In this document: in pieces, positions 13,481 through 63,542 of the stretch | Numbering within the stretch: the first letter of the stretch is position 1 | How the letters are laid out: every line of letters starts with the position of its first letter | Origin: Allacma fusca | Taxonomy: Eukaryota; Arthropoda; Collembola; Symphypleona; Sminthuridae | Length of the DNA stretch: 64,000 bases | Direction: 5' to 3' | NCBI GenBank assembly: GCA_947179485.1 | Contig: OX359245.1 | Span: 539,001 to 603,000, forward strand | The notes under the pieces: generated by a model | Databases searched by the model: none | What the model saw: the letters and a program-made list of their open reading frames with translations, nothing else | Told to the model about the DNA's origin: nothing | Program-made: the position numbers and the translations under genes

Positions 13481-13968
13481 TAGAGCTTCCTTCGGGTTTC
13501 CGATATCCCGAAGTTCCGTGTTCGGAAACGGAACGGAACAATTTCGGAACATTCTTTTTGATTCCGTCATTGAATCGGGGAAAACCGGAACATGAGCACT
13601 TGTACCGATAATATCGGGACCGGGACGGTTCAGAGCATCGGTACGAAAAATGTCCCATATAATTTATTTCACCGGAAAGCGGAATTGTTCTGTTCCGTTC
13701 CGAACCGATCCCGGTACAATTTCTGAAGTGTCGCGTCATCGTTCAACTAGAATGGAAACACATTTCTTATCGCTCTGGCTTGTAAGCAGTTTTTTTCCAA
13801 AATAACGAAATTGGATGAACACAGTTAGATTTAATTTACGCAAATGCTTATCTGTAATACGAGTATCGTTTTCCATGAAAATCAACAGAATAACTAATTT
13901 TGTTTAATAAACATGGGCATGGGCGATTTTTCTTGAAACAAAAATTCTGAAATCGAAATTATTAGCAG
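13481..13968. repeat. First copy of the internal 488-bp duplication
   Basis: Matches 16145-16632 over the full 488 bp with only a handful of base changes seen (for example CCGATATCCC against CCGAAATCCC). It carries the true left tip and left target duplication of the CGGAAC element but stops mid-element at AATTATTAGCAG. Confidence 0.88.
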
Positions 13969-16144
13969 TTATATTATAAGTTACTGATTGCATATATAAT
14001 TAAGAAATTGACTTGCCCGAATACAGGAATTACTATTCTAAAGCTTAACGACAGTATTTATTGAGATGTTAACAGTTCTATGTCTTAATACTTTCTGTTT
14101 CTAGAGTTAGTCGTCATTACATCTTAACCAGATCAATGTACTAAAACATTCAATAAGCTTGCTATAGTATATGCTACATTTCATAATACTTTCATTACAA
14201 TTATTACTATCTATGAAAGTAATATTCAATACTTTTCCTATTTTCAAATATCTTATAAATGACAAAAATAGCTAAATAAAATAATTCCACTTTCTTGAAA
14301 TAAAATTATCCGTGTGGATTTTTTCCTTGAAATTTTTAAGATAAAAGTTATCAAAAAATTAATTCAATGTATATAGATAATTGTCGTGCAAGATGATTAA
14401 AGTTGCACTAAGAATCAACAGAACTTAAGCGAACACCTTTTAAAAATACCTTACATCAAAACAAAAAGGGTGGCCATAATTATTTTTCCCCCTCTAACCC
14501 ACACACACGGGTATTGCCAGAAACTATTTGAAGCCCCAGTTTGTAGCAGAATTATTTCAGCATTGTCTGCAAACATCATTGCCCTGGGGTAATGGTGAAA
14601 TTCACAGGGACAAGAAATGTAGGTTATTTTCAAACTGAGAATGTCGAAAAATTTTTGTTTCTTGTAGAAAATGTTTTAAGCAATTTTTTAAAACTTCTAC
14701 AGGCTTTCTGAGCTACGTTGAGAAAATTATTGACAGGAGTGGTAAACATACAAAGCAAGGTTGACGACATTGATGCAAGAGCGAACGTTACAAAGAAGTG
14801 GAAAGAACAACTGTAAACATAAAAATTTTTATGGAAATTTCATAAATAAGTAACAATAATCCCGGATAATTTTTTGAAAAGTTGTGTCTCCAGCAGATTT
14901 TATACGATTCATTCTTGCTTAACCTGAATTCCTGAAGTTACAAATAACGGCGTCAGAAACTACAAACTTTATAAACTAAAAGTTTTATTAAAACCCCCAC
15001 TCTCCTGACCCAGATAGACTTTACAGAGTAGATGTAATGGTGATGAAGCTTAATTTTTTAAATAAATTTACTGTTTTATTTCATGCTGGTTTTATAATTA
15101 TTACATACATAAGTAACTTTTAAGTCATTTCCGGAAAAAAAGGAAATCCGTGGCTGGAGATTTTAGAACTACTTTCCCGCAAATAGTAGATACTGATGTA
15201 TTTATTTATTTTATTTTTTTATTACCTGTCTTCCCCAATGTATTAAATTCCCTTCAAGCTGAATTTTTTATTCGGGCATCCTTGAGTTAACTTTCTATTT
15301 TTCTGCTTTTTTCAATATAAAAAAGTGTAAACTTAACAGGTTGAGATAACTTAGAGGGGAAAAATGCATTCAGTGGCGTGAAAACACAAACATTTAAAAA
15401 CGCTCGTAACACATAAAAGCTAGCTGACTTTGTAAACAAAATGTGCAACTCCCTTCTAAATTTGTATAATTATTTATAAAGTAAACTTTGAATTCAAAAT
15501 TTTAGACAATTTATTTAGCAGGAACACCAAAAAATATCTGCAGAGCAAAAATATATGATTGAAAATTTTTATAGAAATTCTATAAATAAGTAATAATATT
15601 CCCAGACAAGTTTTTTTGAAAAGCTGTGACTGCAACAAAGTTTATTTTTCATTTTTGTTTAATGTCAATTCTCGAAATCGTAAATAACGGTCTTAGAAGC
15701 GAAAAAAGTGAGGCAAAGTTTTGTTACTCTCCTGACCCAGCTATGCTTTACAGAGTATGTAATATTTCAGACACAACATATCCAATGGTGCTGGGGACTT
15801 CCCCCCCCCCCCCCGAAGATGGCTTTGAAGGCATCACAATAATTGGATATTTATATGCGTATATTAAATCTGGAAATTACGATTCTGTTCCAAATACTTT
15901 CAAATGGAGAAGTTCCCCAGTTTTCACCAATTTGCAGCTAAATGTCTTAACTTATAATCAGTCCTAGAAAACATTTCAAGTGGCGTGAATGCTATAAATT
16001 TAAAACATATTGCCAGATTTAATATTCCACATTTTGTATTATTTTATTAATTTGTAATTTAATTATATAGTAAAACCTTTATCCAATATTTACATAATTG
16101 CTCATTTTTATTCTGCATTGCTGGTAGAAGTTGAGTCTTCAAAT
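13969..16144. repeat. 2.2-kb filler between the duplicated ends
   Basis: No gene seen. It holds relics of the same dispersed family found at 12330-13020 (copies at about 14590-15060 and 15600-16010) and a run of 14 C at 15801-15814, where the related copy at 12665 has only a short C run. Its edges have no terminal inverted repeat or target duplication that I can see. Confidence 0.55.
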
Positions 16145-16632
16145 TAGAGCTTCCTTCGGGTTTCCGAAATCCCGAAGTTCCGTGTTCGGAAACGGAACGG
16201 AACAATTTCGGAACATTCTTTTTGATTCCGTCATTGAATCGGGGAAAACCGGAACATGAGCACTTGTACCGATAATATCGGGACCGGGACGGTTCAGAGC
16301 ATCGGTACGAAAAATGTCCCATATAATTTATTTCACCGGAAAGCGGAATTGTTCTGTTCCGTTCCGAACCGATCCCGGTACAATTTCTGAAGTGTCGCGT
16401 CATCGTTCAACTAGAATGGAAACACATTTCTTATCGCTCTGGCTTGTAAGCAGTTTTTTTCCAAAATAACGAAATTGGATGAACACAGTTAGATTTAATT
16501 TACGCAAATGCTTATATGTAATGCGAGTATCGTTTTCCATGAAAATCAACAGAATAACTAATTTTGTTTAATAAACATGGGCATGGGCGATTTTTCTTGA
16601 AATAAAAATTCTGAAATCGAAATTATTAGCAG
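16145..16632. repeat. Second copy of the 488-bp segment, continuous with the right half
   Basis: Starts at the same TAGAGCTTCC tip but is flanked on the left by CTTCAAAT, which does not match the right-hand GTGTTAAT. It continues without a break into the right half (16633-17124), so this copy plus the right half forms one whole element of about 980 bp. Confidence 0.88.
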
Positions 16633-17132
16633 CAATGAAGCAAGCTTGCAGGAAAATAACATTGTTAGGCCATTGAAGTCCACACGCTACACACATTTAT
16701 TGCTAAAAAATAATTAATAATAATTTTATAATACTGCACAGTAGTTCTTTTTATGTGGCCTAATTATTATTAAATATTATTTTATATAATTAAATAATAG
16801 CATTCCCTAGCATCCAATCTATTAAAAGTATATCATGTATATTAAGTTTTCAGTAATTTGTACACGCGTTTCATGTATATGTTGTGAAAAATTCCGGGAT
16901 ATTTCGCAACGGAACGGGTTCGGAACGGAAAAACTAGCGTAATACGGAACGGAACACAACCTGTAACGGAAAATATACTTTACTCCTTTGTTCCGAACGG
17001 TGTCAGTTCAAATGTTCCGATGTCCCGACAGCCGGAACGGAACCGGGAACAATATTATTTGTAGGTTTCGGAACGGAACGGAATTTCCTACGGAACAAAA
17101 ATGTTGAACACGTTGGAAGCTCTAGTGTTAAT

Positions 17133-17218
17133 ATTATAAAACTTGACTAGATTAGACTCGGGCAACTTTCGAAATCACATGACTTGACTAGACTTGACTT
17201 GCATGACTTCTTGTAAAA
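17133..17218. repeat. Right arm of the GACTTGACT-word element
   Basis: Array of ACTTGACTAG and GACTTGACTTG variants, resuming directly after the GTGTTAAT duplication. Partner of 13388-13472. Confidence 0.45.
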
Positions 17219-18201
17219 GCTAGTCAGGACATAATTACTTGAGGCTCCCTCGTGTAGCTGAAAATCAAAGCTATCTAGTAAGCCAGGGTGAAATTGCATC
17301 GTCAGTATAGTTTAGTATGCTTAAGTACACGGTTTCGTTTCGAAGGATCAGAACATGAAATTGTCCACTGAGCCATGTAAAAATGTTTAATAGAATTAAA
17401 TTAGTTATAATTTTTTCTTCTTTAACATTGCATTTGATTATAATGAAAGCTAGGATACATTTCCCTTCCCACATAATTTCTATATTTAAAAGTTGTATTT
17501 TTTACAAAACAGTTTTTATTAATTCCTTTTAAACTGCAACTAAAATTAAAAATTACTATTGCAAAGTTAGTCTTTCTTGGAAACATTTGATGCCATAACA
17601 CTACACGTGTTAATTTATATTTGTACCTCGTTTGGCGCAAGTAAACATGAGCCAGGGGACGATTTTTTGTAAATCTCCCTGGAAAATCATTTCTAAATTT
17701 ACATGCTGAATCGTATGTCCCTGCATCACAGCTGAGCAAAATATTCACAAACACTAAATCCTACATATTTTTAATTCTAACGTAGAGCCTACATATTAGC
17801 CTATATAGATCACTGCCGAGATTTAACCCAACCTGCATATATAATTTCAAAGTATTGTTCTACCTACAATCGGCATACATCTTTGTCGGAATCGAATCAT
17901 ACCTGCAAACTAAAATGAACTTTAAAAATTAACAATGCAGAATTGGCAATGAAAATGCATGTTCAAGTCACCTTAAAATTAAAAAAAGTTTAATTATTAA
18001 AATTTGCTTTCGAAACGTTTTAGATATGGTTTATCAATTTTTGATATGTGCAACTCATTAAAATTCAATTTATGCTTCGTGATTTATAATTCACTATATA
18101 ATTTATACCATCAATTTACACATCGATTCTCATGTCGAATCAACTTTTCACTTTGCACGATAACATGTTATTTCGGATGGCACCAAAACTTAATTGCGTC
18201 A
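17219..18201. other. Gene-free stretch
   Basis: Nothing recognised. The short minus-strand frames at 17271-17754 have no domain, no consistent splice context and AT-driven composition. Confidence 0.5.
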
Positions 18202-18209
18202 ATGCAAAC

Positions 18210-18581
18210 TAGTGGTCGGAACGATTCAATTCAATTCAGATATTTTCGATTCAATTCAATTAGTTATGTGGACTAAATCGTTAAGCGTTTTGCGATTCGG
18301 TCCAGTATAAAAGCAATTCAATTCAATTCGGTTTTACTCTATGAATTAAACTGAATTGAAAATCGTTTGTTTTTTGCGGGAAGACAAATTACGCGCGCAG
18401 CGCCAGCTACCACATGTAAATGTGTTTTTTTCATTCATTTAGAAATACATGAATTAATAATTATTTAATCGTTCGGTTCGGTTCAATATGTAAACCGAAT
18501 CGAAAAAACTACGATGCGAATTGAATTGAATGGAATTGAACCGACAAATTTCGGTTCTGGACTGAATTAGTCCGACCACTA
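18210..18581. mobile_element. hAT-like element with GAATT-word arms
   Basis: 372 bp. Tips TAGTGGTCGGA and TCCGACCACTA are perfect inverted repeats matching YARNG; target duplication ATGCAAAC at 18202-18209 and 18582-18589. Arms are arrays of ATTCAATTC on the left and GAATTGAATT on the right, around a short unique centre that includes a GC-rich CGCGCGCAGCGCC stretch (about 18392-18404). Non-coding. Confidence 0.88.
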
Positions 18582-29390: not shown

Positions 29391-31190
29391 TAAAGGAGTT
29401 GGGGTCATCTATCTAACCTTGGAAAGGTATATGTATGTCGCATATAAACGCAATTTTTTTATACATTCTTACAGTAGTACAATGTGAGAATCTCGCCATC
29501 TATGGTGACTTCATAAATTATTCAAACTTTCTTTTGCAGCTGTAATTAGCACCATTGACTGGATGTTGCAAACAGCTAGTTCGTGAGATTTGAGAAAATT
29601 TTCTAATTAAAAATACTTTTAAATAAAACCTATGTATACGTCCTTCTGCTTGTCAAGTTACGTTTTCCGTCCCACATGTCCCCAATACCTCACTTCACCC
29701 CTTTGTGAATTTGTTTATATGAAGAGGTAAGGTGCAAACAGACGTAAGTTGATTTCCAAAATTTTGCACGTGAATTTGTTTTATTGTAAAATATATTTGT
29801 TACATTATAAAATTATTGACCGAATGAGTGACCCACCTCAAAGTACCTTTGACATATAGGATTTTACTCATGCATTAGCACAAGTACCTGATGATTTTTG
29901 CTTTTCGCTTGTTCACAGTAGAAGTCATTATTAATCTTCCATTTTTATTATGGTTATTACCAGTGCTCGGCACGGGTACGAAAAATCGGTACCCATACCC
30001 GTATCCGTACCCGAAGTGCGGGTATCGCATTATCTAGTATCTATACCCGTACCCACACCCGAGTATCCGGGTACAAATTTTTCATACCCGTACCCGCAAT
30101 GTAATCTCAAATCATGTGCCTGTACCCGCATTGTACCCGTACCCGAAAAATACTCGAAAATTGTACCCATACTCAGGTATCTCAGTGTCGTACCCGTACT
30201 CGTATTCGGGTGCTCTGTATCCAGATTTCTCTAAATGTAGTACCTAGTACGTTACGTATAATAATGTATGACACCTTAGTGTATAATTCTGACTAGCTAG
30301 AGCGGTATTTGATATTGTATATTTTCATTGAAGAGTAGAAAAACTAGAAACGTCTTTGATTAGAAATAAAATTAACTTGCATACTTGCAGATTCATCAAT
30401 ATATTACCAACCGTACAAAATTTCGATGAATTCTATTTTCCACTTCTATTTTGTTATTATTCCTCGTTTTTGTTTATTTGTTTATACTTCCTAAAACACG
30501 TTTCCCAAAATGAATATATTTTAGCTACACAGCCTAAAATACATTTACTGTATGTTGTAATGTTAAAAGGGTATTAACACTAAGCAATAAGTAATCAGAA
30601 ACACGAAAGTTTCCAACGTATGGGCACGATTGCATAAAAATTCATCAAAACGTCTCAATTCTCAACGTATTCAAATACTCGGGTAAAATTGTCGTGGGTA
30701 CGAGTAAATGACACTATTATACCCGTACCCGGTGGGTATATACCCATTTTGAAATCCTTGTACCCGTACCCATACCCGTATCCGTACCCGAAATTTTGTG
30801 CCGACCAACGTGTACCCGGATAGTACCCGAAATTTATCGGGTGCACAAAATCGATACCCGGGTAGTACCCATACCCGTACCCGTACCTGTTTACCCGAGT
30901 ATTACCCATACCCGTCCCGAGCACTGGTTATTACCGATGGCTAATAGCAAAATCTCGATGATAAAAACAAGATAAACAAAGCCGATTAATTGATGTCAAT
31001 TAATAATTTTTTCGCAAGCGAGAACAGTTCTGAATAATAAAGCACTATGTGGCATTACACTATGCCTATGTACAAATACACATGACGTCATATACAGTCA
31101 GTCAGACTTCGTTGTGACAACGAATGATCATCCATCAGTCAGTCGTAATTTGTCAGATTTTGGGATAACGTCCTTTGTGGCACATCCCTT
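29391..31190 (-). mobile_element. Partial Harbinger-like element, older copy
   Basis: Reverse-complement relative of 58437-59068. Shared blocks include a GGTCACTCATTCGGTCAATAA-type segment (here inverted near 29815-29840) and, near 31085-31180, TGACGTCAT and GACTGACTG words followed by TTTGTGGCACATCCC. It ends TTTGTGGCACATCCC|TTA, consistent with a PIF/Harbinger TWA target. The left end appears truncated at 29391. A GTACCCG hAT-like element is inserted in it at 29961-30926. Confidence 0.6.
29961..30926. mobile_element. hAT-like element with GTACCCG-word arms
   Basis: 966 bp. Tips CAGTGCTCGG and CCGAGCACTG are perfect inverted repeats matching YARNG; target duplication GTTATTAC at 29953-29960 and 30927-30934. 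Each arm is about 270 bp of degenerate TACCCG and GTACCC repeats. The ~430-bp AT-rich centre is unique and non-coding. Same tip family as 40551-46271. Confidence 0.92.
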
Positions 31191-31195
31191 AGAGG

Positions 31196-35073: not shown

Positions 35074-35110
35074 TCCCCGGGGACGAAATAATTGTCCCCA
35101 TGTTGTATTT

Positions 35111-41776: not shown

Positions 41777-42067
41777 CTACTGGGATGGATTACTATAGCC
41801 AAGACGTGGAGTTTGTCGTTAACCCACTTTGCTCGTATCAGTAAAAGACCCACGAGGCTTCGTTGCCTTTCTGATTACTGGTGGGTGTTGCATTTTAACG
41901 CTTTAATGATTCCTCATGAGTAGAGAATCAGTCAGATAGTATATTTTTCGACTAATACAGTGGAGCTTATCAAAGAAGAATTCAAGGGACAGGTTTATCA
42001 GATTAACTTTAATTAGCTTCATTGAAAGCGTAACATTAAAATTATTTTAGGACGTACTATGAGATAA

Positions 42068-43833
42068 CCCGCATGGAAATTGGCAGCACAATTGTGCTCA
42101 AACTAATCCCGAAAGAAAAATGTGTGCACAATTATGCACAGACAGAGTTTATAAATTTTCATGTGCACAAATGTGAACAAATTCTAAAAACATAGTTGAA
42201 CACATTAAGATGAGCACAATGCCATTGTGCTGAATTTTTAAGACCTACTAAAGATAAGTATATTCACGCAATTCTGATTGAATTAAGATGTTTTGAAACC
42301 GAACTAATTGTTTAAAATCTCAGTTAATTTCAAAACTTTCTGCCTTATCGGATATATGTAACAGTTACTTATAAAATTCATTATTCCAACATTTGTTTAA
42401 CGTTGCCCATTTCCCCAGATACTAATAAATGAGTTTCTTAGGGATATTAACATATTTTCAAACGATTGCCACAATTGCTTTATCCTTTTTGATTCACCTC
42501 ATCCTGGGTATTTTCGGACTTCCGACTCCCGAGGAAAAAATTGAATGTACAATAAAGGCGGCAATTTAATTGTAAAAATGGAAACAACGTGACTAAAATA
42601 AATAATAAAAAATTTTAAACATGGGTGAAGAGGCAATATGGTCAAGATGCCTATTCGATCAAAAACAACAGGCGGTTTACATGCAGTTTCACTAAATACC
42701 AAATTGTCTGATCCCTTCAACTTTGTAAATGTAATTTTGTCTGCGGAGATCATTTTGCTTTTTCTCGAAAACGCATCTAGACAACTTTGCCTCTTCACCG
42801 ACACCACGTGACGTGCAAGCCACAGTTCTGCCTAATATGAGCGGCGGCGCACAATTACCACCATATGCTTCCAGTGTGCGGTGTAACAGCGGAGAGCTAA
42901 ATCATGCCAGCTTGTACAGCCACCAAATATAATGTTAGCGGGAGTAGAATTTAGAAGGAAATAACGGACACGGGATGGGACTGGGACGGCGGTGTTGGTG
43001 TACGACTAATTAACTAAATTGGGGAGTAAAATACTTAATTATTGTTTTTTACGCTTACTGTAACCTTAAGTTTTTGTTAAATTAGAGTTGAGTTTACAAC
43101 TCTTGAGGCATAACATAATTGTGTATGTGCAGTGTGTAAGTAATGCAGTGAAAAGCGTTTAACTTATGTGTGTAAGTACTTAAATTGTATGTGCTGTGAA
43201 GCTTACACTGCCAGCTGTAAATATAACTATTCAAATGTTGTTAATTTGTCATTTTTGAATACTTGACAACACTATAACACCGATCATTTAAATGTTTGTT
43301 TTGCAGTTGGTGTTCCCTGAAATTATAAACCATCACTAAAATGCTACTTTTGTCTTTTTCTTATATAGGGATATATGCACCAAAGAAGGAATTGCGCCCA
43401 GGAGACAACCCTGTAGCATTGATAGAAGCCATCCCTTTTGAAGAAATTCGTGGCCTGCATCAAACAACTTAAATAAGTATTTAAATTATATTTTGGTTAA
43501 CTCCTAAGGGACAAATAATGTATCTAGAAGTTAAACCTATTAAAGAATATATTTTTTCCAGAAATTACAGAACAAAAGATTTTGTTAGAAATAATTTAAT
43601 TTCATTCTTTTATTCAGCATTTGCATTTTTACTAGTTAAGAATGTCAGAAAACAAAATTGACAGTAAAGACAATAATTTTGTGCATCTAGTTTTCTGAAC
43701 CTTGGTTTGTGCTCAAACGTTGCGCACAAACTTCAGTGCACAATTAATTGTTCACTGTACTTTGTGCACAAAAGTGGTCCTGTTTTGAACAGGGAATTTT
43801 GTGCACAATTGTGAACAGCGATTTCCATGCGGG
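42068..43833. mobile_element. Element with CCCGCATGGAAAT termini, superfamily unclear
   Basis: 1766 bp bounded by CCCGCATGGAAAT and ATTTCCATGCGGG, a perfect 13-bp inverted repeat. Subterminal regions are arrays of GCACAATTGTGCAC and related words (42085-42235 and 43685-43815), like the hAT-like set. Unlike those, the tip does not fit YARNG and the flanks (TGAGATAA, AAGTTGTG) show no 8-bp duplication. The centre may include a spliced coding exon (43369-43472). Confidence 0.65.
43369..43472 (+). CDS. Possible terminal coding exon
   Basis: A strong acceptor (TTTTGTCTTTTTCTTATATAG) is followed by 104 nt open in one frame, ending in TAA at 43470-43472. The 33 codons have protein-like, non-AT-biased composition (IYAPKKELRPGDN, then IEAIPFEEIRGLHQTT). 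An ATTAAA lies at about 43541. I do not recognise the peptide and found no upstream exon. It could be the last exon of a transposon gene carried by the CCCGCATGG element, or a host exon picked up by it. Confidence 0.3.
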
Positions 43834-43889
43834 AAGTTGTGAATAATTATGCATTTGTTAGCTTCAGATCCGTTTCTTATTGTTACAAT

Positions 43890-45158
43890 CAGGGATGGAA
43901 ATGGATTATTAATCCGGGATTAAATTAATCCCGGATTACACATTTATAAAAAATAATTAATCCCAATCCCAATCCAAGTGTTGGGGACACTTGAATATAC
44001 TCCTTAATCCTCAATCCCGGTTCAAGGCTTTCATTTTAATCTATTAGTTTAATCCAATTATTTACATGGCGACGAATTAATCCCCAATCCGAATCCAAAA
44101 CTTGGTGAATTATTTGGTCAATCCTAATCCCAAAATCCACTGCTGTCAGTAGTGTGGATTGGATTATATCTCCTGCTATGTCATTGCTACACTTTGCTCA
44201 CGTTTTTCAACATCTAGCGGTTTCATAATGAACATGTAGCTTGTGTTTGTTGACATGTTACAATTCCAAGGCTGGCGATTTCAAACAGGAATCATGCCGT
44301 TATAGTTTGTAGAAACATAAATCTGAGAAAAGAATGTGGAAGCATAGTAGGAGCTTTAAGTTTTTTGTATTACTTACGGACTAAAAAAATTTCTTTAAGT
44401 TTGCCTCAAATATGTGCATATTTTGATTACTAGTATTTCAGCTGTTTAATATAATAACTTAAATGTGTATCATAAATATGCAGGTTGGAATTGCGATTTG
44501 GCCTATATCTTCCTATTTTAAGCAAACTATTCCTGGTTCCACTCCATCCACAATAATTTACTGCGTACTAATGTCTTTGAATAAATAGGACCAACCTTGT
44601 AATTTAAACCAACTATTAGGATATTTGCGTCATCGCATTATCCCAATATGAATTACCGAATTTATGGTGTATATTTTAAGAAATGTTGACCCGTAAACCT
44701 CATTTAAATAAGATTTAAATTGGTCTACAGTATGTAGTAATCCATTAGAGATTTTTTGATTTTGTTCATCAATCCTTAATATCTGCATCTTTATTGGAAA
44801 TCCAATGAAAATTGTATTCATCAAACCTCTAATCGAATCCAAACGTTTGGAGTTTTCCCGTCAATCCCTTAATCCAATCCAGGTGATCGGAAATTTTTCC
44901 CTCAATCCCTTAATCCAATCCAGGTGATGAGAGATTTTTGCTTTAATCCTTTAATCCAATCCAGGTGATCGGAATTTTTTGCTTTAATCCGTTAATCCAA
45001 TTCAGGTGAATGGAATTTTTACCTTTAATCCGTTAATCCAATCCAAGTGATCGGAAATTTTTGCTTTAATCCGTTAATCCAATCCAAGTGATCGAAAGTT
45101 TTCACTTCAATCCATTAATCCAATCCTGCAGGTAGTCTTTGTAAATTTCCCATCCCTG
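43890..45158. mobile_element. hAT-like element with TTAATCC-word arms
   Basis: 1269 bp. Tips CAGGGATGGAAAT and ATTTCCCATCCCTG pair with one extra base; target duplication GTTACAAT at 43882-43889 and 45159-45166. Left arm is TTAATCCCAATCC words. The right arm ends with six 41-bp units (44871-45116). Unique centre about 44160-44820. Non-coding. Confidence 0.92.
44871..45116. repeat. Tandem repeat, six units of exactly 41 bp
   Basis: AATCCAATCC (one copy AATCCAATTC) starts at 44871, 44912, 44953, 44994, 45035, 45076 and 45117, a constant 41-bp step. Each unit continues AGGTGATCGGAATTTTTGC or similar, then TTTAATCCGTT. It lies in the right arm of the TTAATCC element. Confidence 0.9.
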
Positions 45159-46279
45159 GTTACAATATACAAGTATCCAGGGTTGGCCATTTGAAAATTC
45201 CAAGGGCATTAACAGTAATTTGGTCATTTATTGAAATAAATGTTTAAGACATTTTAGAAATCCATGAAATTTTGAACAGTATCATTCTTGTATGTATGTA
45301 ATATTTATATTTCAATCAATTTGAGTATTGTTGATAATTGTGATGTTAAAAGCGAAGGCGTCTGTGCTTGGCTTATAAAGCTTTCATGAGGCTGCATTTG
45401 AGTCTAATTGAGTCTAACTTGGTCTAAAATTGCCCTCCAGACACCACAAATGTGAGAAAAAGTTTACCAATTTTTGTTTTGTAAACCTATACAAAATTAG
45501 TACTCAATCTTGCTCCTATGTTTACGCCCTGAGACCACAATATTTGACCTGCAAAAATTATGATCAACTAAAATTATCCATAATACTTTCTAAATGCTGT
45601 TCAAATATATTGTTTTGTAATTAAAGTTGTGTTAAAAGATTTTCGAGAAAAACATTTAGCCAGGAGAAATTTTTTTAGATGCTGTGAAAGTCGTAAAGCA
45701 AGTTTTTGATTATGGAGAGTTTGGTATATTAAATAATTCGTCCCAACTTGGTATCCTTACACCATACAATAATTGTTCGGTAACCAATTCACTAAAATGT
45801 ATTTCAATGCATTCATCTGGCTATCATTAGCATTTGAATTTCTTCATTGTTTATTAAATATTTTCCATAAGTGATTTTAAATGATTTTTTAAACAACTTG
45901 AAATAGGATGCCCTTAATTCTTAGGGAAAATGCCGAAATCTTAACAAATTGGAAATTTTTGGTATTTTCAAAAGGACATGTAAATATCGTCGAGCATTTA
46001 ATCAGCAAACCCTGCAGTACCCGAGTAATACCCGGGTACAAGCAATGGATACTCGGGTACGGGTACAATTTTTGGGTACATTACGGGTATTTTGGGAACG
46101 GGTAAATTGTGGGTACAGGTACTACATTTTTGTTTCACGTATGGGTACGGGTACTAAAAAAATTTACCCGGGTACTCGGGTATGGGTACGGATATAGGTA
46201 CAGCATTTCGAAGTATCCGATAAGTGGGTACGGGTACGGGTACACGGTTTCTGTACCCAGTCCGAGCACTGGTTGAAAG

Positions 46280-47790: not shown

Positions 47791-49742
47791 AATCAATCAA
47801 TCAAGGCCAACCAAGGGCCAATTTATTGCATTCTCGGGCCTAACCCATAATGCATTTCTTTAGATACATAACATTTTGTTAATACAATCTATTAAATAGA
47901 ACATTATAGATCTTAAAGTATCCACATTACAATTAATTACAAATCGCAGCATTTAAATCATATCTCTTTTAATTTCATAGACGAATTACATATCACGTAG
48001 GAATGATAGGCCATATAGCCAGCATAGCGTTTCATTAGATATCATACATTTACCTTTTTAGATGAATATATCGCAGCCAAGTCTTAACTAGGCGTACATA
48101 AATGACTTCAAGATTATAAAAATACTAATGCGGCATGCTGGAGGGAACAACAACACAATCGCAATCTTTGAGAAACCCAACTAGGCTCCCACTTGGTCTA
48201 CTTTTGTTACACGGCTTGGTGACAGAAAGTATTTATACATCATGTTGTTAACGACATTTTAACATTGAAAATCATCCCTTATAAAGGTTCCATTAAAGCA
48301 AAGCAAAAAAAAAAATTTTTTTATGAGAATATGAAAACTAAGTTATTTCCATTTAGATTTGTAATATTTGAAAAAACCATGAGTTCCAGAAGATTAATTT
48401 TGAGTTTGTTACTCCCCTATCTCATTTACATGTGTGCGACGGTTGAGAAGATAGTTCAGTAGGGGCCCCTGGTTTCTTTTGCGGCAACCATTCCGAGCAT
48501 ATCCTTACTACTTGCCTTCCATCGGATTCGTAGAAAAATGTGTCCCCACTAGTGGGGTCGCTGATTCCAAGATATCGCCATGACTTCAAGCGCATTGTTT
48601 TGTTCGACGAGTCTACTGTCTTGGAACCCCATTCGTACAAGTGCTGTTTTATCCGTCGTTGCTCAAATGTCAGGTCCGGTTTAATTGCAAGCTTCGATTT
48701 ATTTAATTTAGAAACATTTTTCCATATTAGACCGCAATCATATTTGGAGCGAAACTTACATACAATAGAACAACTTCCATCCCTCCAGGGAATAGGGAAT
48801 ACATTCTCGACCCGAGTATTTACGCCTGTTACACGTAGAAGTTCGGAGATAATGCTGTCAACGTCTTCCTTCTTTGGCCGCACAGGTAGATTAGTTCCAG
48901 TTATAATAATTCCTCTCGCATTGTCCGGGTTCTTCATTTCCAACATGTCATTTTTCAAGTGAACAAGCTCAGTGTTCAGGCTGGCGGAGTTATCAGCAAC
49001 CGCCCGTTCAAGTATTTCCATTCTTACGTTCTGATTGTCAAATGAATTTGTTAGGGACTGGATATTCTCCTTTACAGTTGCAGATTCTTTGATTAATATG
49101 GCCAGAGAAGCGTTGGTTTTCTTTGAGCTCTCCTGTATATCCTTCTGTAGATCCTTTATGGTTTTCATGATCATTCCAGGGTCGTCCGCTTCGCCCTTTA
49201 ATTTGACAGCTTCTCCTCTATCACCTCTCCTCAGTACTCTTCCTTCACGGGCCGTTCGGGATAAAGATGAACTATCGTCCGTGTCCGCGATTATCGGGTC
49301 ACCTTTTAAATTCAGAGGTTTGGTAGTATTGTGTGGCTTTTTATTGTTCATATCAGTCATGATTTGAGTGCAAGATGTGGATATATTATATACAAAAACT
49401 TGCCTTAGCCTTAGCCCGGTTTACACCTCAAACTTTTGCACTTTTTGCCAACGAATAATTAGTACGAGTACCCTGGTGTAACCGGGCAGTTGCAGGTCCA
49501 GCGGTTGAGGTAGAAGGAATTACTTGTACAAAATATTACTACTCTTAAATATTGCCGCACCCTAACTATGTACATGAAAGCAGTTATGTGGGGGAAATAT
49601 GGCGGAAACTGAGAAACTGTGAGAGCTGCTCGTGTTTTGTCTTGAAGTACCTTATTTGAATGTCAATACTTGGAGTTATCTTAAGAGATAAGGGAGCAAC
49701 CTTTTTTTCGTGTTGCTTCTTTCAGTGTCAATCTGGAACTCA
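47791..49742 (-). mobile_element. ORF1-only retroposon (half-LINE)
   Basis: 1952-bp insertion flanked by a 17-bp target duplication ATAGTATGTTGCTTTAC (47774-47790 and 49743-49759), the signature of target-primed reverse transcription. On the minus strand it has a 382-bp leader, one 312-codon ORF (49360-48422), a ~630-bp 3' region and a short tail CTTGATTGATTGATT instead of poly(A). There is no reverse transcriptase or endonuclease. The last ~55 bp resemble the end of the truncated LINE at 38209-39008. The layout parallels mammalian HAL1 half-LINEs, inferred here to be mobilised in trans. Confidence 0.85.
48422..49360 (-). CDS. LINE ORF1-like RNA-binding protein
   Basis: 312 residues, ATG at 49360, TGA at 48422. 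A basic, low-complexity N-terminus (1-60) is followed by a coiled coil at about 62-143 with regular heptads (IKDLQKDIQESSKK and ILERAVADNSASLN regions). Next is an RRM-like segment at about 149-207, opening GIIITGTNLP and containing GSCSIVCKFRSK. The C-terminal domain has a KSKLAIKPDLTFEQRRIK stretch, resembling the end of L1 ORF1p and of baculovirus FP-like proteins. This order is that of LINE ORF1 chaperones, which form trimers on their own RNA. The frame is intact, so the insertion is fairly recent or the protein is kept. The assignment is by pattern, not by alignment. Confidence 0.75.
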   Translation of the reverse strand: MTDMNNKKPHNTTKPLNLKGDPIIADTDDSSSLSRTAREGRVLRRGDRGEAVKLKGEADDPGMIMKTIKDLQKDIQESSKKTNASLAILIKESATVKENIQSLTNSFDNQNVRMEILERAVADNSASLNTELVHLKNDMLEMKNPDNARGIIITGTNLPVRPKKEDVDSIISELLRVTGVNTRVENVFPIPWRDGSCSIVCKFRSKYDCGLIWKNVSKLNKSKLAIKPDLTFEQRRIKQHLYEWGSKTVDSSNKTMRLKSWRYLGISDPTSGDTFFYESDGRQVVRICSEWLPQKKPGAPTELSSQPSHTCK

Positions 49743-49791: not shown

Positions 49792-50040
49792 CGGGTTATA
49801 CAATACCCGATATTCACAAATATTAAATAGCTCGTGATTTTCACTGGAGCAGTATGTTTTAATGCTTGTTAGGCGCCAGGTTATCTTCGTGCTAATGACG
49901 TCCGGGCATTTCACTCGGGTAATGCAATACACGATATTCAAAAATATTACAGAACTTATGATTTTCACTGGAACAATATTTTTTAATGCTTGTTAGGCGT
50001 CAGGTTATCTTCGGGCTAATGACGTCCGGGCATTTCACTT
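49792..50040. repeat. Tandem duplication, two units of 124 bp
   Basis: CGGGTTATACAATACCCGAT at 49792 recurs as CGGGTAATGCAATACACGAT at 49916, and TCCGGGCATTTCACT at 49901 recurs at 50025, giving a 124-bp period. The units differ by roughly 10 percent. No ORF. Confidence 0.9.
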
Positions 50041-57035: not shown

Positions 57036-58293
57036 CAGTACTGCGATCGGGTCAAGTAATTTCACTTCATCATGAACTTGAATTGACCAAGAAACTTCAA
57101 GTAATTTTCAAGACACAACTTGAACTTGATAACTCGTGTTCGTGCAATTATTTGACTTGTCAAGTTCAAGTAATCAAGTAACTTTTTTAAAACCCGAACT
57201 TGATCAAGTAGTTAAAGTTCCAAACTTGACTTGAACTTGACTTGACCATGACTTGAACGCGACTTGAACTTGATAATTCAAGTTAAGTATCACAAAAAAT
57301 TAAACATGATCACAATAAGTCGAACTTACATCAGCAAATTATTTCCTTCAGACTGAAAACCAAAACGCTTTCAGAAAAATATTTTACCGCTACTTTTTAT
57401 TTAAAACCATTCGAGGACAGCTTTGAGCGTGTACTGAATACAGTAAAAGTTCGATATAAGGGACTATACAATTTATAAAGGAATTTCCCTCATACAAAAT
57501 GTCTAAAACATTGCGTAAATGAAAGATGGGGTCAAACAAATGCATCCCTGATATCGATGCATTCCTTATAAGGTGAGCCCTTATAACGGACTTTCACTGT
57601 ATATCTGACGAGTTTTACGTACATGGTGTCAAGTTTTATTTAATATTCATATATGCATATACCTATTCGAGTATTACCAGTACTCTTAATTTAATATTTA
57701 ATAAACTAGTATTTACTTATTTATTAAACGCTTTTTGTAAAGAGTCATCCAAGCTGATTTCATACTGGATTTTATCTACACAAGTTGAAACTAATAATTC
57801 TAAGCAACAATATAAATTATCAAGACAATTCTTTCACTTCAAGGAGAGGTCGCTGCAACAACTAACAATGAGCAACTTCTGGTAAACAAGACCTTCATAA
57901 AACGGACTCTGATTTTGAATTTTGTCCTTTGATTTAAGGCATGTGCAAACAATATACCCTGGACACGACATGAAATTGGATTGTCATTTTGAAATTGCTT
58001 CCGTCCTTTATGACATGCGCAATCTAAAACTACTTGAACTTGACCATGAAATCTCAAGTTCATGGTCAAGTTTTTTCTTTCCATTACTTGACCCTGAACT
58101 TGACTTGAATTTCAAGTAAATTTCTCTTACTTGTACTTGAACCTGACTTGTCTTAGAATGTCATGGTCAAGCTGAGTACGTACTTGAACTTGACCCGAAA
58201 GATTCAAGTAAAAAAATTGGCCTACTTGAACTTGACCCGAACTTGAACTTGACTTGAAAACTCAAGTATTACTTGAAATTGTCCGCAGCACTG
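57036..58293. mobile_element. hAT-like element with ACTTGA-word arms
   Basis: 1258 bp. Tips CAGTACTGCG and CGCAGCACTG (one mismatch); target duplication CTTCCATC at 57028-57035 and 58294-58301. Arms are ACTTGAACTTGAC arrays (about 57046-57290 and 58025-58280). The centre carries a small pogo-like element at 57441-57599. Related in word and tip to 62438-63542. Confidence 0.9.
57441..57599. mobile_element. Miniature pogo/Tigger-like element
   Basis: 159 bp bounded by CAGTAAAAGTTCGATATAAGG and, at the right, CCTTATAACGGACTTTCACTG read inward as CAGTGAAAGTCCGTTATAAGG, flanked by TA on both sides. CAGTnnAA tips with a TA target fit the pogo branch of Tc1/mariner. Inserted in the ACTTGA element. 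Non-coding. Confidence 0.7.
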
Positions 58294-58436: not shown

Positions 58437-60699
58437 GGATGTGCCACAAATGACGTCATCCAAAAATCTGACAAATTACGACTGACTGACTGGATGATCA
58501 TTCGTCGTCACAACGAAGTCTGACTGACTGTATATGACGTCATGTGTATTCGTACATAGGCATAGTGTAATGCCACATAGTGCTTTATTATTCAGAACTG
58601 TCAAAGGTAATTTGAGGTGGGTCACTCATTCGGTCAATAATTTTATAATGTAACAAATATATTTTACAATAAAAAAAATTCACCTGCAAAATTTTGGAAA
58701 TCTACTTACGACTGTTTGCACCTTACCTCTTCATATAAACAAAATCACAAAGGGGCGAAGTGAGGTATTGGGGTAAACATGTGGGACGGAAAACGTAACT
58801 TGACAGGCAGAAGGACGTATACATAGGTTTTATTTAAAAGCATTTTTAATTAGAAAATTCACTCAAATCTCACGAACTAGCTGTTTGCAACATCCAGTCA
58901 ACGGTGCTAATTGCAGCAGCAAAAGAAAGTTTGAATAAATTATGAAGTCACAATAGATGGCGAGATTCTTACATTATACTACTGTAAGGATGTCTAAAAA
59001 AATGTGCGTTTATATGCGATATACCTATACCTTTCGAAGGTTAGATGGATGACCCCAACTCCTTTAAAATCAATACGTCTGACATTTTAGATAACGTGTC
59101 CACGTGGAAATGTTGAATTATTTAGTGACACTGATTCGGTAGTTATCCTGTTTATAGGCAATTAGCAAGTGTTTATATGTGACCATTTTGATCTCCTTAA
59201 GTAAAAAATCTATTCAAAAGACGTCATTTGTTAGAAGATCGGTTCAGCCGCAAGATGTGAGTAAACCTAACAGAACATATGTACACAAATGCGTATATCC
59301 GACAGATGACGCAATCATTATGTTTTTTGTATCCTTTAGTTTTCAAGATGCATCAATAAATCGGCACACATTTCAAAATAAAATTGTCATAGCACAATTG
59401 AAGTTCACTGTTGCTTAAATTGTGTTGGAATTGTCTGCTTCAAAAAACTCGCATCAGTTACTTTGTCCCGTATATTACTTATACAACTCTGCGACTTGGT
59501 GAATTAGGGATAGTACTAATGATTTCGGATATTTAAACTTACGAATTCGCACGGGATTTTATGGAAGAGTAACAAAGGGCCTGGGTTTCATACGCACAGA
59601 AAAATGACGTCATGTTATGAAGGAGGGACTGACTAGTGTTTCTTGTCAATTGCAAGTTAACCGCAATTACTAATTGAACTTGAAAGTTCGGTTCAATTGC
59701 GGTTATTTTACACCAGGGAATTGCAATTGACGGTGCAAGTGCAATTTGTGTGTACTTAAATTGCAAACACAAAAGCATTAAGTACTTGCAATTACCGGTT
59801 AAGCACAACTGAAATTGCAAGAAATTCAATTGCAATTACAAGTTCTTGCACTGCAAAAAGTTGCAATTTTAAAAATACTTATCAAGTTAATTGCAACTTG
59901 CAACCGTTTCGAATTTGAGCGCAAAATTCTACAAAATGCCTCAATAAGTCATTCCGCTGTTATAACTAATGTACATAATAGACTCGAGTATTGTCTCAAA
60001 AGGCGTAATTACTGTATTGACTGTACAATTTCGTCGGTCAGCGGGAAAATTGATCTAAGGGATTTTTTTATTAGCATCAAAATGTTTCCATTTGCCCAAA
60101 ATTATATAAAAATAGGCCAAATATTTTAAGGATAGCAAAGATATGCTGCACGTTGAAATTTACAATATTTCAGCCTTGGAGGCCTTGAAGGAAGACAATT
60201 TCATTTTTGCATCTCTGTTTCATTATGCATTGCATCTAGATTATTTTATTTAATACACTTTGTTCAATTTCGTGAAACAGCATGTATACCATCTTGCTAC
60301 CAATCAAAAATGCACGGATCATTTTGTCTCTTCACCGACGATTTATACTGTGTATCAGTTAACTTGCAATTAAAAAATTGCAATTGCACTTGCAATTGTA
60401 CTTATCGGTGCAATTACTTCCAAATGTTTTTGCAATTGCCTTACCAACTGCAAGTAACTGATGAACTAATTGCAAGTTCAACTTCGGTTATTTGCATGAT
60501 TAAATTGTCACATTTTAGCAAGTACCAGTTACGGCATTACTAGTACTTGCATTATCAATTTAATTGTAATTGCAAGTTCGGTTGTTCCCAAAACTTGCAC
60601 CGACAGAAACACTAGGACTGACTGAGTATGGCATGTTAAATCAAGCACGAACAATATGATTGACTGACTGAATGCATGACGTCATTTGTGGCATACCCC
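58437..60699. mobile_element. Harbinger-like element, carrying an inserted hAT-like element
   Basis: Ends GGGATGTGCCACAAATGACG and, from the right, GGGGTATGCCACAAATGACG: terminal inverted repeats of about 27 bp starting with G's, flanked by TAA on both sides as in PIF/Harbinger. Inside each end are GACTGACTGA and TGACGTCAT words. It is related to 29391-31190 (inverted). Interrupted at 59634-60614 by a GCAATT-word element. The ORF at 59179-59418 has no transposase or Myb motif. Confidence 0.72.
59634..60614. mobile_element. hAT-like element with GCAATT-word arms
   Basis: 981 bp. Tips TAGTGTTTCT and AGAAACACTA are perfect; target duplication GGACTGAC at 59626-59633 and 60615-60622. Arms are arrays of CAATTGCAAGTT and TTGCAATTGC. 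The centre (about 59930-60350) is AT-rich and non-coding. Confidence 0.92.
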
Positions 60700-60975: not shown

Positions 60976-61103
60976 CCAATAAGCCATAAAATTCTTCACA
61001 TTTGTCCTTTCTAGCAGTTTCACGTATTGTTTTTCTCTACAAATCAATTTAACGTTTAAGGGGTGAAAATGGCAAAAAATATAAAAACCAATTTATCAGA
61101 GCA

Positions 61104-61613
61104 TCCTCCACTTCCCCTCCACTTCCACTCGTCTTCCCCTCCACTTCCCTTCAAATACATAACGCCTCCACTTTCCCTTCGAATACATAACCCCTCCACT
61201 TCCCCTCCACTTCCCTTCAAATACATAACCCCTCCACTTCCCCTCCACTTCCCTTCAAATACATAACCCCTCCACTTCCATTAAAATACACAACCCCTCC
61301 ACTTCCCCTCCACTTCCCTTCAAATACATAACCCCTCCACTTTCCTTTACATACATAACCCCTCCACTTCCCCTCCACTTCCCTTCAAATACATAACCCC
61401 TCCACTTCCCCTCCACTTCCCTTCAAATACATAACCCCTCCAATTCCCCTCCACTTCCCCTCCACTTCCCTTCAAATACATAACCCCTCCACTTCCCCTC
61501 CACTTCCCCTCCACTTCCCCTCCACTTCCCCTCCACTTCCCTTCAAATACATAACCCCTCCACTTCCCCTCCACTTCCCTTCAAATACATAACCCCTCCA
61601 CTTCCTCTCCACA
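61104..61613. repeat. CTCCACTTCCC minisatellite
   Basis: Tandem array of an 11-bp unit CTCCACTTCCC alternating with a 28-bp unit (the 11-mer plus TTCAAATACATAACCCC), giving higher-order steps of 28 and 39 bp. It runs into the N gap and resumes as TAACCCG at 61814. The Gly/Trp/Lys-rich minus-strand frames across it are artefacts. True length is unknown. Confidence 0.93.
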
Positions 61614-61813: not shown

Positions 61814-61871
61814 TAACCCGAAATAATGTTCATTTTCACTTATTCACTTTTCCAAATGCCTGTTCAACCAT

Positions 61872-62298
61872 TCCTTCTATTGCTCGAACCAATTCAATTC
61901 TGAATTGGAAATTTTCGGTTCAGTTCATTTCAGATTACTAATTTTTCGATTCATTTCCAGATGAAACTGAATCGATTGATTCAGTTCATATTTTTGAATT
62001 AAATTGAATCGTTTTTCTTGAATTAAATTTCAAACAATTCATTCTGCCCCAAACATTTCAGCAACAGATTTACCGTTTACAAGCTCTCCAGATCCTAAAA
62101 GTAACGATCTGTACCCTTAGTTTGACTTCCTTCTGCTGTACGCTTGGAAAATACTGCTGTAGTGTCTGTGTCTAGAAAGCGTATTCTGTAAGTTTATCTG
62201 TGGAAACCGTTGTTTTCGATTCAGTTCAATTCAAAAATTTGAACTGAAATGAATTGAATTAATTTGTACTGAACTGAATTGAACCGTTTTGACCACTC
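61872..62298. repeat. Degraded element with GAATT/TTCAGTT-word arms
   Basis: Inverted arrays of TTCAGTTCATTTC and GAACTGAATTGAAC around a unique centre (about 62035-62215). The right tip GACCACTC read inward is GAGTGGTC, close to TAGTGGTC of the element at 18210; the left end is eroded (TATTGCTCGAACC). No clean target duplication. Confidence 0.5.
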
Positions 62299-62437
62299 CT
62301 TCCGATTCAGATGACACTTTCTAGGGCATGAAATACGTCAGATGACCATATTATGTAATTTTTGACGATCCTACCTTCTTAGAACGATATTAAGATAGGC
62401 CGATATGTCGTGTGAAATATACGAGAATTATCGTAGC

Positions 62438-63542
62438 CAGAGCTGCGCTCAAGTCAAGTAAATCCCAAACTTGACCCTGAACTTGACTTGACCCTGATAT
62501 TCAAGTAGGTTTTTCAGTCAGTCTTGAACTTGACGTTTCATGGTCAGACAATTACTTGAAAATTCAGGGTCAAGTACTCAAGTACTTTTCGCGTAACTTG
62601 AACCTGGTCAAGTATAGCCGGGACAACTCTTGACTTGACTATGACTTGACCATGACCCGAACTTGAACTTGACTTGCATTGTCAAGTATTTTTCAAAATA
62701 GAAATAGTATTCACACTTACAACATTTATTATGATTTTTATTGATGAAACACTAAGTAATTAATCTAATTAAATACTCTTGATGTTTATTACTGCATACC
62801 ACTAATCGACTAAAACGTAGCAAATAACAATACAATAGTCTCTACTAATTGTAAGATAGTCTTTTAGGTGTAAGTAAATCAATTCCCATTGAATTTTGGT
62901 ACTAATAATAACTGCTTGCGCTAACATTAAAGTTTGGGTTGCTTCACTGAAAATCGCCACAGTTCAACGTCCAGAGTACTTTTACTTAAGTAGCTTGACT
63001 CAATAACCATGCGTTTATTTTATGCAACAATACCGTACAACAATTGAACACTTGCTTTCATAAGTGCTACTCGGAAGTTTTTATATTATTATTCTTTCGT
63101 TCACTAGTACGGCCGTGTCTTCCCAAGCGGATCTGGATATATTGAATCGTAACTCGAAAATATGTTGTTTAGACGAATATGCATGGGTACGGAATCTCGG
63201 AGTAACGACAAAGACATTTTGAAAGAAAGCCTATTGAAGTATTTAGCGCCACAATTTCGATATACGTAACGTTTCGTCACTTGAATAAGTACTTGAAATA
63301 CTCATGGTTCATGGTCAAGGATTTACACATTTTTACTTGACCATGAACATGACTTGACTCTCAAGTAGAAATTTTTGTCTTGACCATGATAACTACTTGA
63401 CTTCAAATCTCAGGGTCAAGTAGATAAATAACTTGACCATGCCTTGAATGCTCAAGTATCCATTATATTTTACTTGACCATGACCCGAACTTGACCATGA
63501 CTTGAAATACTCATGGTCTACTTGAACTTGAGCGCAGCTCTG
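62438..63542. mobile_element. hAT-like element with ACTTGA/CATGGTC-word arms
   Basis: 1105 bp. Tips CAGAGCTGCGCTCAAG and CTTGAGCGCAGCTCTG are perfect over 16 bp; target duplication ATCGTAGC at 62430-62437 and 63543-63550. Arms are ACTTGAACTTGACC and TTGACCATGACTTGA arrays. The centre (about 62695-63265) is unique and non-coding. Word is shared with 57036-58293. Confidence 0.93.

Follow-up and report, generated by a model that had tools for sequence, protein, structure and literature searches.

We found that, in most of the array-bearing hAT elements of the collembolan Allacma fusca, the short words that fill the two subterminal arms lie, past the first ~25 bp, mainly on one and the same strand in both arms, with the bulk of the array pointing inward at one end of the element and outward at the other. 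These opposite array senses suggest that recognition differs between the left and the right end. Word arrays and the diversity of their words are already known from Ac/Ds and from work on hAT-derived domains (PMC8097297); relative to the portions of the literature drawn on here, what is new is the same-strand rule.

hAT insertions of the window

The window is a 64,000-nucleotide stretch of contig OX359245.1. Direct checking of its sequence showed that all 12 insertions claimed in an earlier note are flanked by perfect 8-bp target site duplications (TSDs), with paired tips identical at 10-14 of 14 positions; 8-bp TSDs also bound elements holding a hAT domain at loci beyond the window. An unbiased window scan for an 8-bp repeat with an inverted tip gave 18 pairs, against 4, 0, 0, 2 and 1 pairs in five second-order shuffles. 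Eleven of the 18 are claimed elements, and the twelfth, 57036-58293, falls slightly below the tip cut-off of the scan. When YARNG tips were demanded, 10 pairs were left, all of them claimed elements, which bears out the description of the tips as mostly YARNG (10/12); the exceptions are the CAGAC tips of 33326-36855 and the CAGTA left tip of 57036-58293. Our recount of the TSD bases agrees with the earlier one (T at position 2 in 9/12, A at position 7 in 7/12), and across 27 TSDs (the 12 of the window plus 15 perfect ones from other loci) the values are 19/27 and 15/27, or 63% when symmetrised. Ac-type hAT targets prefer nTnnnnAn, and the observed TSDs fit this preference. The TSD of Hermes is 8 bp, as in the Allacma fusca elements. 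The insertions are as follows.

13481-17124, no strand assigned: hAT element; TIR TAGAGCTTCC; TSD GTGTTAAT (13473-13480 / 17125-17132); word CGGAAC
18210-18581, no strand assigned: 372-bp hAT MITE; TIR TAGTGGTCGGA; TSD ATGCAAAC; word TTCAATTC
29961-30926, no strand assigned: hAT element; TIR CAGTGCTCGG; TSD GTTATTAC; word CGGGTAC, outward in the left arm and inward in the right, that is, on the same strand
33326-36855, no strand assigned: hAT-like element hosting two nested insertions (34077-36412, and 34138-35073 within that); TIR CAGACwTGGAAAAC; TSD CCTTAAAT; array weak or absent
34077-36412, plus strand: hAT element nested in 33326-36855; TIR CAGAGCTTCTGT; TSD GTCCTGCT; word CGGGACG, in both arms mainly on the plus strand
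34138-35073, plus strand: hAT MITE nested in 34077-36412; TIR TAAGGTTCTCAACGGAT; TSD TCCCCGGG; word CGGATA, more often on the plus strand in both arms
40551-46271, plus strand: hAT element, 3,492 bp minus nested insertions; TIR CAGTGCTCGGACTG; TSD GTTGAAAG; word CGGGTAC, in both arms mainly on the plus strand
40833-41776, plus strand: hAT element nested in 40551-46271; TIR CAGAGCTATGCA; TSD CTACTGGG; word AAAATAC, in both arms mainly on the plus strand
43890-45158, plus strand: hAT element nested in 40551-46271; TIR CAGGGATGG; TSD GTTACAAT; word TTAATCC, in both arms mainly on the plus strand
57036-58293, plus strand: hAT element; TIR CAGTrCTGCG; TSD CTTCCATC; word ACTTGA, moderate polarity; further copies in L040 (6734-8014) and L035 (1950-3185)
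59634-60614, no strand assigned: hAT element; TIR TAGTGTTTCT; TSD GGACTGAC; word TTGCAATT
62438-63542, plus strand: hAT element; TIR CAGAGCTGCGCTCA; TSD ATCGTAGC; word ACTTGA, moderate polarity; partial copy in L036

The element at 13481-17124 is composite: its left arm occurs twice (13481-13968 and 16145-16632, 99.2%), and it contains a full 980-bp copy at 16145-17124.

The TSDs, the tips, the nTnnnnAn-like targets and an autonomous relative with a dimerisation domain support the earlier assignment of the 12 insertions to the hAT transposons. The window elements are non-autonomous members of many Allacma fusca hAT families and are presumably mobilised in trans by hAT transposases whose genes lie at other places in the genome. 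The autonomous relative of 34138-35073, with which it has tips and words in common, was found at L051:3129-4281 + L024:1-2186. This CGGATA element is bounded by TSD ATTGTACT and carries the hAT dimerisation domain PF05699 (6.8e-16), a PF14372 hAT-like_RNase-H match below the cut-off of 27 (1.1e-3, 19.6 bits) and a zf-BED half-match below the cut-off of 20.6 (E 0.09, 13.3 bits); a PDB sequence search with its transposase up to E 1 gave no match, and no zf-BED was found in the L033 and L050 frames. Another hAT domain (C1:34363991) sits between the tips of a second CGGATA pair, which are separated by 3.3 kb. Autonomous relatives with the same tips, which the earlier note had proposed looking for, were thus found for CGGATA and for none of the other window word families (1/10).

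Word arrays and their strand polarity

Eleven of the 12 window insertions carry arrays of a family-specific word, placed no more than ~300 bp from the tips. In 10 of the 12, the left and right arms have 6-mers in common in direct sense (z 14.8-43.7 against dinucleotide shuffles), whereas in 18210-18581 inverted sharing is the stronger (z 10.6 vs 3.4 direct). Since 33326-36855 has no significant array by the same measure (z 0.6 direct, 2.8 inverted), the claim that arrays occur in every insertion is reduced to 11. That each element has its own word is largely confirmed by a cross-element matrix and fails for two pairs, 29961-30926 with 40551-46271 and 57036-58293 with 62438-63542, each of which has a word in common.

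The earlier note had described the word as reverse-complemented in the opposite arm. This proved wrong for most of them: by k-mer score, 21 of 23 array-bearing elements are direct (three of the 21 near parity) and two slightly mirror. A word scan allowing one mismatch gave 25 of 27 direct (some near-ties), one weakly mirror and one undetermined. The same strand dominates, so these are not foldback or mirror arms, the exception by k-mer score being 18210-18581 (37 vs 73; undecided in the word scan). Near parity by k-mer score are 13481-17124 (direct by word scan), L031:7868-8848 (CGGAAC), 33326-36855, the outer L038 element (GGACCA) and 59634-60614, whose array orientation is unreadable because its word is near-palindromic; L041:3602-5350 leans weakly to mirror in the word scan yet scores 118 vs 94 direct by k-mer. 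Among TSD-bounded elements containing a hAT domain, 8/9 score direct, six of these at 100 or more. As controls, 889 cross-family arm pairs were 45% direct, and the flanks (17 vs 11) also leaned slightly direct (median log2 0.25). By our tally, the layout spans ~13 word families.

The polarity depends on distance from the tip. In the word scan, agreement between arms stands at 56% over the first 25 bp, 82% at 25-50 bp and 64-80% beyond 50 bp, out to ~250 bp. The outermost word is often in equal orientation at both tips, within an extended inverted repeat, and single arms hold many words in both orientations.

Tip-plus-word searches of the assembly, as the earlier note had advised, were run for two families and gave many matches: 821 and 386 for the GGGTAC patterns, 111 and 98 for the CGGATA patterns (overlapping matches included in the CGGATA counts), and none for the reversed patterns in the same genome portions. 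Facing tips combined an inward and an outward arm in 24/25 GGGTAC pairs (first 35.26 Mb of C1) and 59/60 CGGATA pairs (C1 to C10:57.2 Mb), and copies within each family have a common layout.

Comparison with known hAT ends

The words of maize Ac are inverted between the ends, unlike the mostly direct words of the Allacma fusca elements; the same-strand layout would therefore not be universal. Maize Ac/Ds resembles our elements in its 8-bp TSD, short TIR and terminal ~200-bp regions with multiple transposase-binding AAACGG hexamers, and the non-autonomous Ds-l4 elements in their variable filler and modal length of ~1 kb; Ac/Ds differs in using a single word for the whole family (PMC3260210). 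In Hermes, the hAT transposon of Musca domestica, the BED domain binds AAG(T/C) repeats; the outermost repeats align, both in sense, while LE STR2-7 are antisense and RE STR1-5 sense (PMC10368747). Since LE-STR1 and RE-STR1 align in sense, we take the convention of that source to be tip-inward. Read so, Hermes also has inverted tips and short subterminal sites, the inner ones on one element strand (PMC10368747), and inner words on one strand with polarity opposite to that of the tips are what we found in Allacma fusca (21/23 elements; 24/25 and 59/60 pairs). The Hermes sites differ from the dense arrays of Allacma fusca in being sparse 4-mers of one word, 17 and 14 over ~450-bp ends (PMC10368747). 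Given these sources, the statement that no described class resembles the Allacma fusca elements was too strong: Ac/Ds has subterminal arrays of hexamers and includes Ds elements with filler at their centre (PMC3260210), and the subterminal repeats of Hermes are strand-polarised (PMC10368747).

The words bound by hAT-derived BED/Hermes domains are diverse, most of them containing CGG and some being AT-rich, and the four hAT-encoded domains match subterminal regions of their own element (PMC8097297). The words CGGATA, CGGAAC, CGGGTA and CGGGAC and the AT-rich AAAATAC and TTAATCC are of the same kinds, although protein specificity was measured in the hAT-19/CGGBP work and our words are known from DNA alone; our data add many families in one genome and array strand polarity to what the consulted parts of that work cover (PMC8097297). 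It is plausible, and fits the published motifs, that transposase-binding words have diverged family by family.

Interpretation of the layout

We lean towards the view that the words are putative transposase finger sites and that array polarity marks the left and right ends. Each word would be bound by a BED-type zinc finger of the transposase that belongs to its family, and arrays would raise local affinity for the many fingers of an oligomer. By analogy with the asymmetric Hermes model, opposite polarity toward the two tips may let the transpososome tell left from right and synapse the ends in a productive arrangement, and shifts in finger specificity would change the word of a family with the polarity layout retained. 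That same-strand arrays are a general, selected hAT rule, with words free to change and arrays facing the tips in opposite senses for an asymmetric transpososome, is a more tentative proposal.

In favour of such a mechanism, a symmetrised Hermes LE/LE transposon shows no activity and has its ends paired in antiparallel fashion. Three findings from the same source weigh against it: restoring asymmetric BED sites to LE/LE did not rescue transposition, the right end lacks BED contacts in the structure, and activity did not fall dramatically when inner sites of the left end were mutated (PMC10368747). Also on the negative side are the half zf-BED motif, the single autonomous partner, the mirror-leaning 18210-18581, the near-parity elements, the slight lean of the flanks, and the position of the flip, which by eye lies at the gene 5' end in five autonomous elements and at the gene 3' end in the autonomous CGGATA element.

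It is rather unlikely that the layout reflects hairpin avoidance, whereby mirror arms would form long hairpins, costly as dsRNA triggering small-RNA silencing or as DNA foldbacks unstable in replication, and same-strand arrays would be kept with no role in transposase recognition. In the 16 polar elements (of 31) that were folded, predicted inter-arm RNA pairing was -1 to -17 kcal/mol naturally and -15 to -86 kcal/mol with the right arm reversed (16/16), and reversal made total folding energy more negative in 15/16, a contrast partly expected because these elements were picked as polar. The reach of polarity past the first 50 bp also fits, but agreement peaks just behind the tip, and single arms fold on themselves anyway (two arms alone, -54 to -155 kcal/mol) with their words in both orientations.

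A neutral history seems improbable. If each element started as one continuous array between short inverted tips and a centre was later inserted or captured, splitting the array, both arms would be left with one strand without selection. This accounts at once for same-strand arms and the common layout of family copies, and maize has Ds elements that carry filler (PMC3260210). However, ~13 different words have the layout, each of which would need a separate split. The arms have words in common, yet no direct inter-arm alignment exceeds 33 bp in the 16 polar elements, so neither arm is a copy of the other, and in 34077-36412 and 43890-45158 the arms have different higher-order repeats (the right arm of 43890-45158 has its own 41-bp one). 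The arms thus seem to turn over separately with polarity kept.

Mirror-image arrays, in which one arm has the reverse complement of the word in the other to serve a transpososome of twofold symmetry, hold for the tips, often for the outermost word, and for 18210-18581 by k-mer score; as a general statement they are refuted by the k-mer scores and the GGGTAC and CGGATA tip pairing, and are hardly tenable. Some words are short and degenerate, as ordinary microsatellites adjoining unrelated insertions would be, but this explanation is scarcely credible given the many tip-plus-word matches against zero reversed and the regular ~885-bp spacing of CGGATA tips.

In summary, a one-strand layout recurring across word families in one animal offers a testable design rule where Hermes provides one structural case. 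It corrects the intuitive mirror-image picture of the ends, bears on the need of hAT transposons for ends that are long and unlike each other, and gives a practical signature for locating and pairing them, namely a tip with an inward array at one end and with an outward array at the other. The many natural word families could serve as material for reading a BED zinc-finger recognition code and, if the general rule is true, one genome would hold a dozen or more finger-word pairs together with an orientation rule, that is, a readable code.

Insertions and nesting in the window

The window covers bases 539,001-603,000 of contig C1. All twelve insertions claimed by the earlier note were found in place, and in each the 8-bp duplication is exact and the tips are inverted. 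An unbiased scan for duplications with inverted tips gave 18 hits, including 11 of the 12, vs 0-4 hits in five shuffled sequences, and a chance origin of the duplications was rejected; when YARNG tips were required, ten pairs were obtained, every one a claimed insertion. Several insertions are nested: 34138-35073 lies inside 34077-36412, itself inside 33326-36855, and 40551-46271 hosts both 40833-41776 and 43890-45158. Inspection by eye of window frames of at least 75 aa recognised no transposase. The other features annotated are as follows.

Features annotated in the window
13481-17124: candidate composite element of macrotransposon-like build; second copy of the left arm at 16145 (99.2% identical), full 980-bp copy at the right, the whole enclosed by one target-site duplication (TSD)
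4215-10699, - strand: Ty3/gypsy-type retroelement; long open frames, one with protease, RT, RNase H and integrase domains, the other with a zinc knuckle
48425-49420, - strand: 332-aa open frame; no Pfam match, by eye resembling non-LTR ORF1

ACTTGA-like word sequence, read by eye, flanks 13481-17124 on both sides (13400-13472 and 17133-17220), as if it had jumped into an older arm of the ACTTGA family. A GAACTG-word array with a CAGTACTCGG-like tip is present at 35751-36125, inside 34077-36412, and the scan gave no TSD-bounded element there. A long CCTCCACTTCC / CAAATACATAA tandem array (61105-61613) runs into a 200-N gap, and a 124-bp tandem unit occurs twice at 49792-50039 with 88% matches.

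Word arrays and their strand polarity

The earlier note held that every insertion carries arrays of a short, element-specific word, reverse-complemented in the opposite arm. For each element, 6-mers from the 300 bp at either end, with tips removed, were compared and scored against dinucleotide shuffles; the arms matched in direct orientation (words on the same strand) in 10 of the 12 elements (z 14.8-43.7), while 18210-18581 matched better inverted than direct (z 10.6 vs 3.4) and 33326-36855 had no significant array by this comparison (z 0.6 direct, 2.8 inverted). Arrays are thus borne out for 11 of the 12. Their specificity was also confirmed, the 6-mer matches being mostly limited to an element's own arms, with the exceptions of 29961/40551, which have one word and one tip in common, and 57036/62438, which have one word in common and similar tips. 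A copied arm as the origin of the shared words was rejected, the longest direct arm-arm alignment being at most 33 bp in 16 elements.

The claimed reverse complementation is contradicted for most elements by strand counts, which in the left and then the right arm were 12:0 and 12:3 for CGGGAC, 10:3 and 12:2 for GGGTAC, 12:1 and 10:3 for AAATAC, and 7:4 and 11:0 for TAATCC. With the polarity axis defined on one arm and scored on its partner, 29961, 34077, 40551, 40833 and 43890 were strongly direct, and 34138, 57036 and 62438 also showed direct polarity; 18210 was inverted, and 13481, 33326 and 59634 showed no polarity in this test. Within the 30-100 bp zone, read from each tip towards the centre, the words generally face inward in one arm and outward in the opposite arm, and the outermost word often has the same orientation at both ends. 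For this reading and for the following scan the words were picked by us from the data; k-mers in the 6-mer comparison, the test of one arm against its partner and the k-mer score below were picked mechanically. The word scan, with one mismatch allowed, gave 25 direct among 27 elements, one weakly mirror (L041:3602-5350, from a fetched genomic locus) and one without a call; the 25 include near-ties at 18210-18581 (6:5, 3:5), which is mirror by the k-mer tests, and 59634-60614 (10:11, 9:8). Agreement with the direct layout started at 56% (first 25 bp), rose to 82% at 25-50 bp and then lay between 64 and 80% up to about 250 bp.

By k-mer score, with elements of one family counted separately, 21 of 23 array-bearing elements were direct (the remaining two scored 141/145 and 248/272), including three near parity: 13481-17124 (138 v 130), 59634-60614 (213 v 194) and L041 (118 v 94). 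Eight more elements fell below the cut-off of 100 (5 direct, 3 mirror), giving 26 direct v 5 mirror for all 31. As controls, flanks of the same elements gave 17 v 11 (median log2 0.25), and 45% of cross-family arm pairs were direct. The tally by family was 13 v 1 (sign test 0.0018) under our own grouping, which includes the weak families CGGAAC and TGCGAAA.

The assembly (392.7 Mb, 91 contigs) was searched for tips followed by words. For the GGGTAC family (29961-30926 and 40551-46271), tip plus inward word gave 821 matches and tip plus outward word 386, and reversed-pattern controls gave zero. Pairing of facing tips within 8 kb, based on the first 100 matches of each pattern, in the first 35.26 Mb of contig C1 (overlaps merged, leaving 96 inward and 42 outward arms), gave 24 inward-outward pairs, one inward-inward and no outward-outward, against an expectation of 48:42:9% if arm type were independent; the right end of the sole inward-inward pair also pairs with an outward arm. 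For the CGGATA family (34138-35073), the inward and outward patterns gave 111 and 98 matches, with zero in reversed-pattern controls. Across C1 to C10:57.2 Mb, the 100 inward matches listed reduce to 78 distinct arms; these and 87 of the 98 outward arms formed 59 inward-outward pairs, one inward-inward and no outward-outward, with 45 of the 165 arms unpaired. Spacing was mostly about 0.88 kb (MITE). Mirror arms predict inward-inward or outward-outward pairs, so their near-absence speaks against that layout. Since copies within a family share descent and some sit in tandem duplications, each family is one evolutionary event, and the 24/25 and 59/60 are not independent observations. Taken together, strand counts, k-mer scores and facing-tip pairing reject mirror arms as a general rule. 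CGGATA MITEs at C1:9374366-9386864 and C8:8853299-8933752 recur at 5.8-kb and 39.8-kb steps and probably sit inside tandem duplications.

Autonomous partners

Searching the assembly for the hAT dimerisation domain yielded 860 candidates; the 150 scored and listed all exceed the cut-off, and none of these falls within the window. Viral contigs scanned with a hAT alignment gave no relatives. In eight of 20 fetched 9.9-kb hAT regions the domain sits in an element bounded by inverted tips and 8-bp duplications; no element boundary was found in the other 12. The polarity counts take in these eight and the L024/L051 element described next, and exclude the 12 boundary-less regions.

The right arm of 34138-35073 matches locus L024 (86% over 237 bp) directly behind a hAT domain, and an autonomous relative sharing tips and words, the partner sought, was found for the CGGATA family in L024 together with a further 4.3-kb stretch, L051. 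This element (L051:3129-4281 plus L024:1-2186) is 3,339 bp in length, with TIR TAAGGTTCTCAACGGAT, TSD ATTGTACT, two frames (351 and 141 aa) and CGGATA words favouring the + strand in both arms (8:4 and 11:3); Pfam gave PF05699 at 6.8e-16, with an RNase H-like match and half a BED finger both below threshold. Among the CGGATA pairs, two have a wider spacing, 3,267 and 3,287 bp, with a hAT domain between their tips (C1:34363991 and C9:21629981); the autonomous element itself lies at C9:21.627-21.631 Mb.

Eight of nine hAT-domain elements were direct by k-mer score, six of these at 100 or more. L043:3455-7220 has a hAT domain, tip CATAGATGCACA and a perfect TSD, with no word array (k-mer 57/77), indicating that not all hATs of Allacma fusca have arrays. 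By eye, L033, L037, L038, L039 and L050 have tip-nearest words opposed to the inner array on the 5' side of the gene and a uniform orientation on the 3' side, the words of L037, L038 and L039 being alike; the autonomous CGGATA element shows the opposition on the 3' side instead. Three equal-scoring hAT-domain matches on C8 (28181777, 28191590 and 28201403), spaced exactly 9,813 bp, are probably a tandem duplication carrying a transposon.

Possible explanations and relation to known hAT transposons

The best explanation, which we consider on balance probable, is that the words are sites of a transposase finger, that their arrays would provide affinity and that word polarity would mark which end is left and which right. 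In Hermes, AAG(T/C) sites behind the tips are bound by the BED finger, and the octameric transposase carries many such fingers; the outermost sites of the two ends align and are both sense, and the inner ones run antisense in the left end and sense in the right (PMC10368747). Because both outermost sites align and are called sense, we read this convention as running inward from each tip, which would place the inner sites of Hermes on one strand of the element, as in most of the Allacma fusca elements. A Hermes transposon with two left ends (LE/LE) is inactive, and such ends pair antiparallel (PMC10368747). hAT-derived fingers bind varied words, most with CGG and some AT-rich (PMC8097297), a split also seen among the words here.

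Other Hermes results speak against a simple polarity code. In the same study, restored asymmetric sites fail to rescue LE/LE, the structure has no BED contacts at the right end, and mutation of inner left-end sites causes no dramatic drop in activity (PMC10368747). The failed rescue lowers our confidence in the polarity model. That same-strand polarity is a general, selected rule of hAT transposons is a tentative proposition that we hold as possible. The words of maize Ac are presumably inverted between its ends, and we therefore do not claim the layout to be universal.

The chief rival, which we regard as unlikely, is that avoidance of hairpins keeps the arrays on the same strand; in 16 polar elements, predicted inter-arm pairing lies at -1 to -17 kcal/mol for the natural arms and would lie at -15 to -86 kcal/mol with one arm reversed. 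The second rival, a less likely one still, is that a single ancestral array was split neutrally; this would leave arms with words in common, but it is weakened by the lack of any direct alignment above 33 bp between them and by the number of different words. Ordinary microsatellites beside unrelated insertions are rejected as very improbable; the pattern searches covered words with tips.

Ac/Ds already provides arrays of subterminal hexamers and non-autonomous elements whose filler varies (PMC3260210), and the diversity of hAT finger words is likewise known (PMC8097297). A literature search for the polarity rule or for springtail hAT arrays found none described in the texts available, the Hermes paper being closest (PMC10368747). 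Generality beyond Allacma fusca rests on the literature. As far as the literature searched shows, what is new is that about a dozen hAT families in a single animal carry dense, family-specific arrays, and above all the same-strand polarity of these arrays as a rule.
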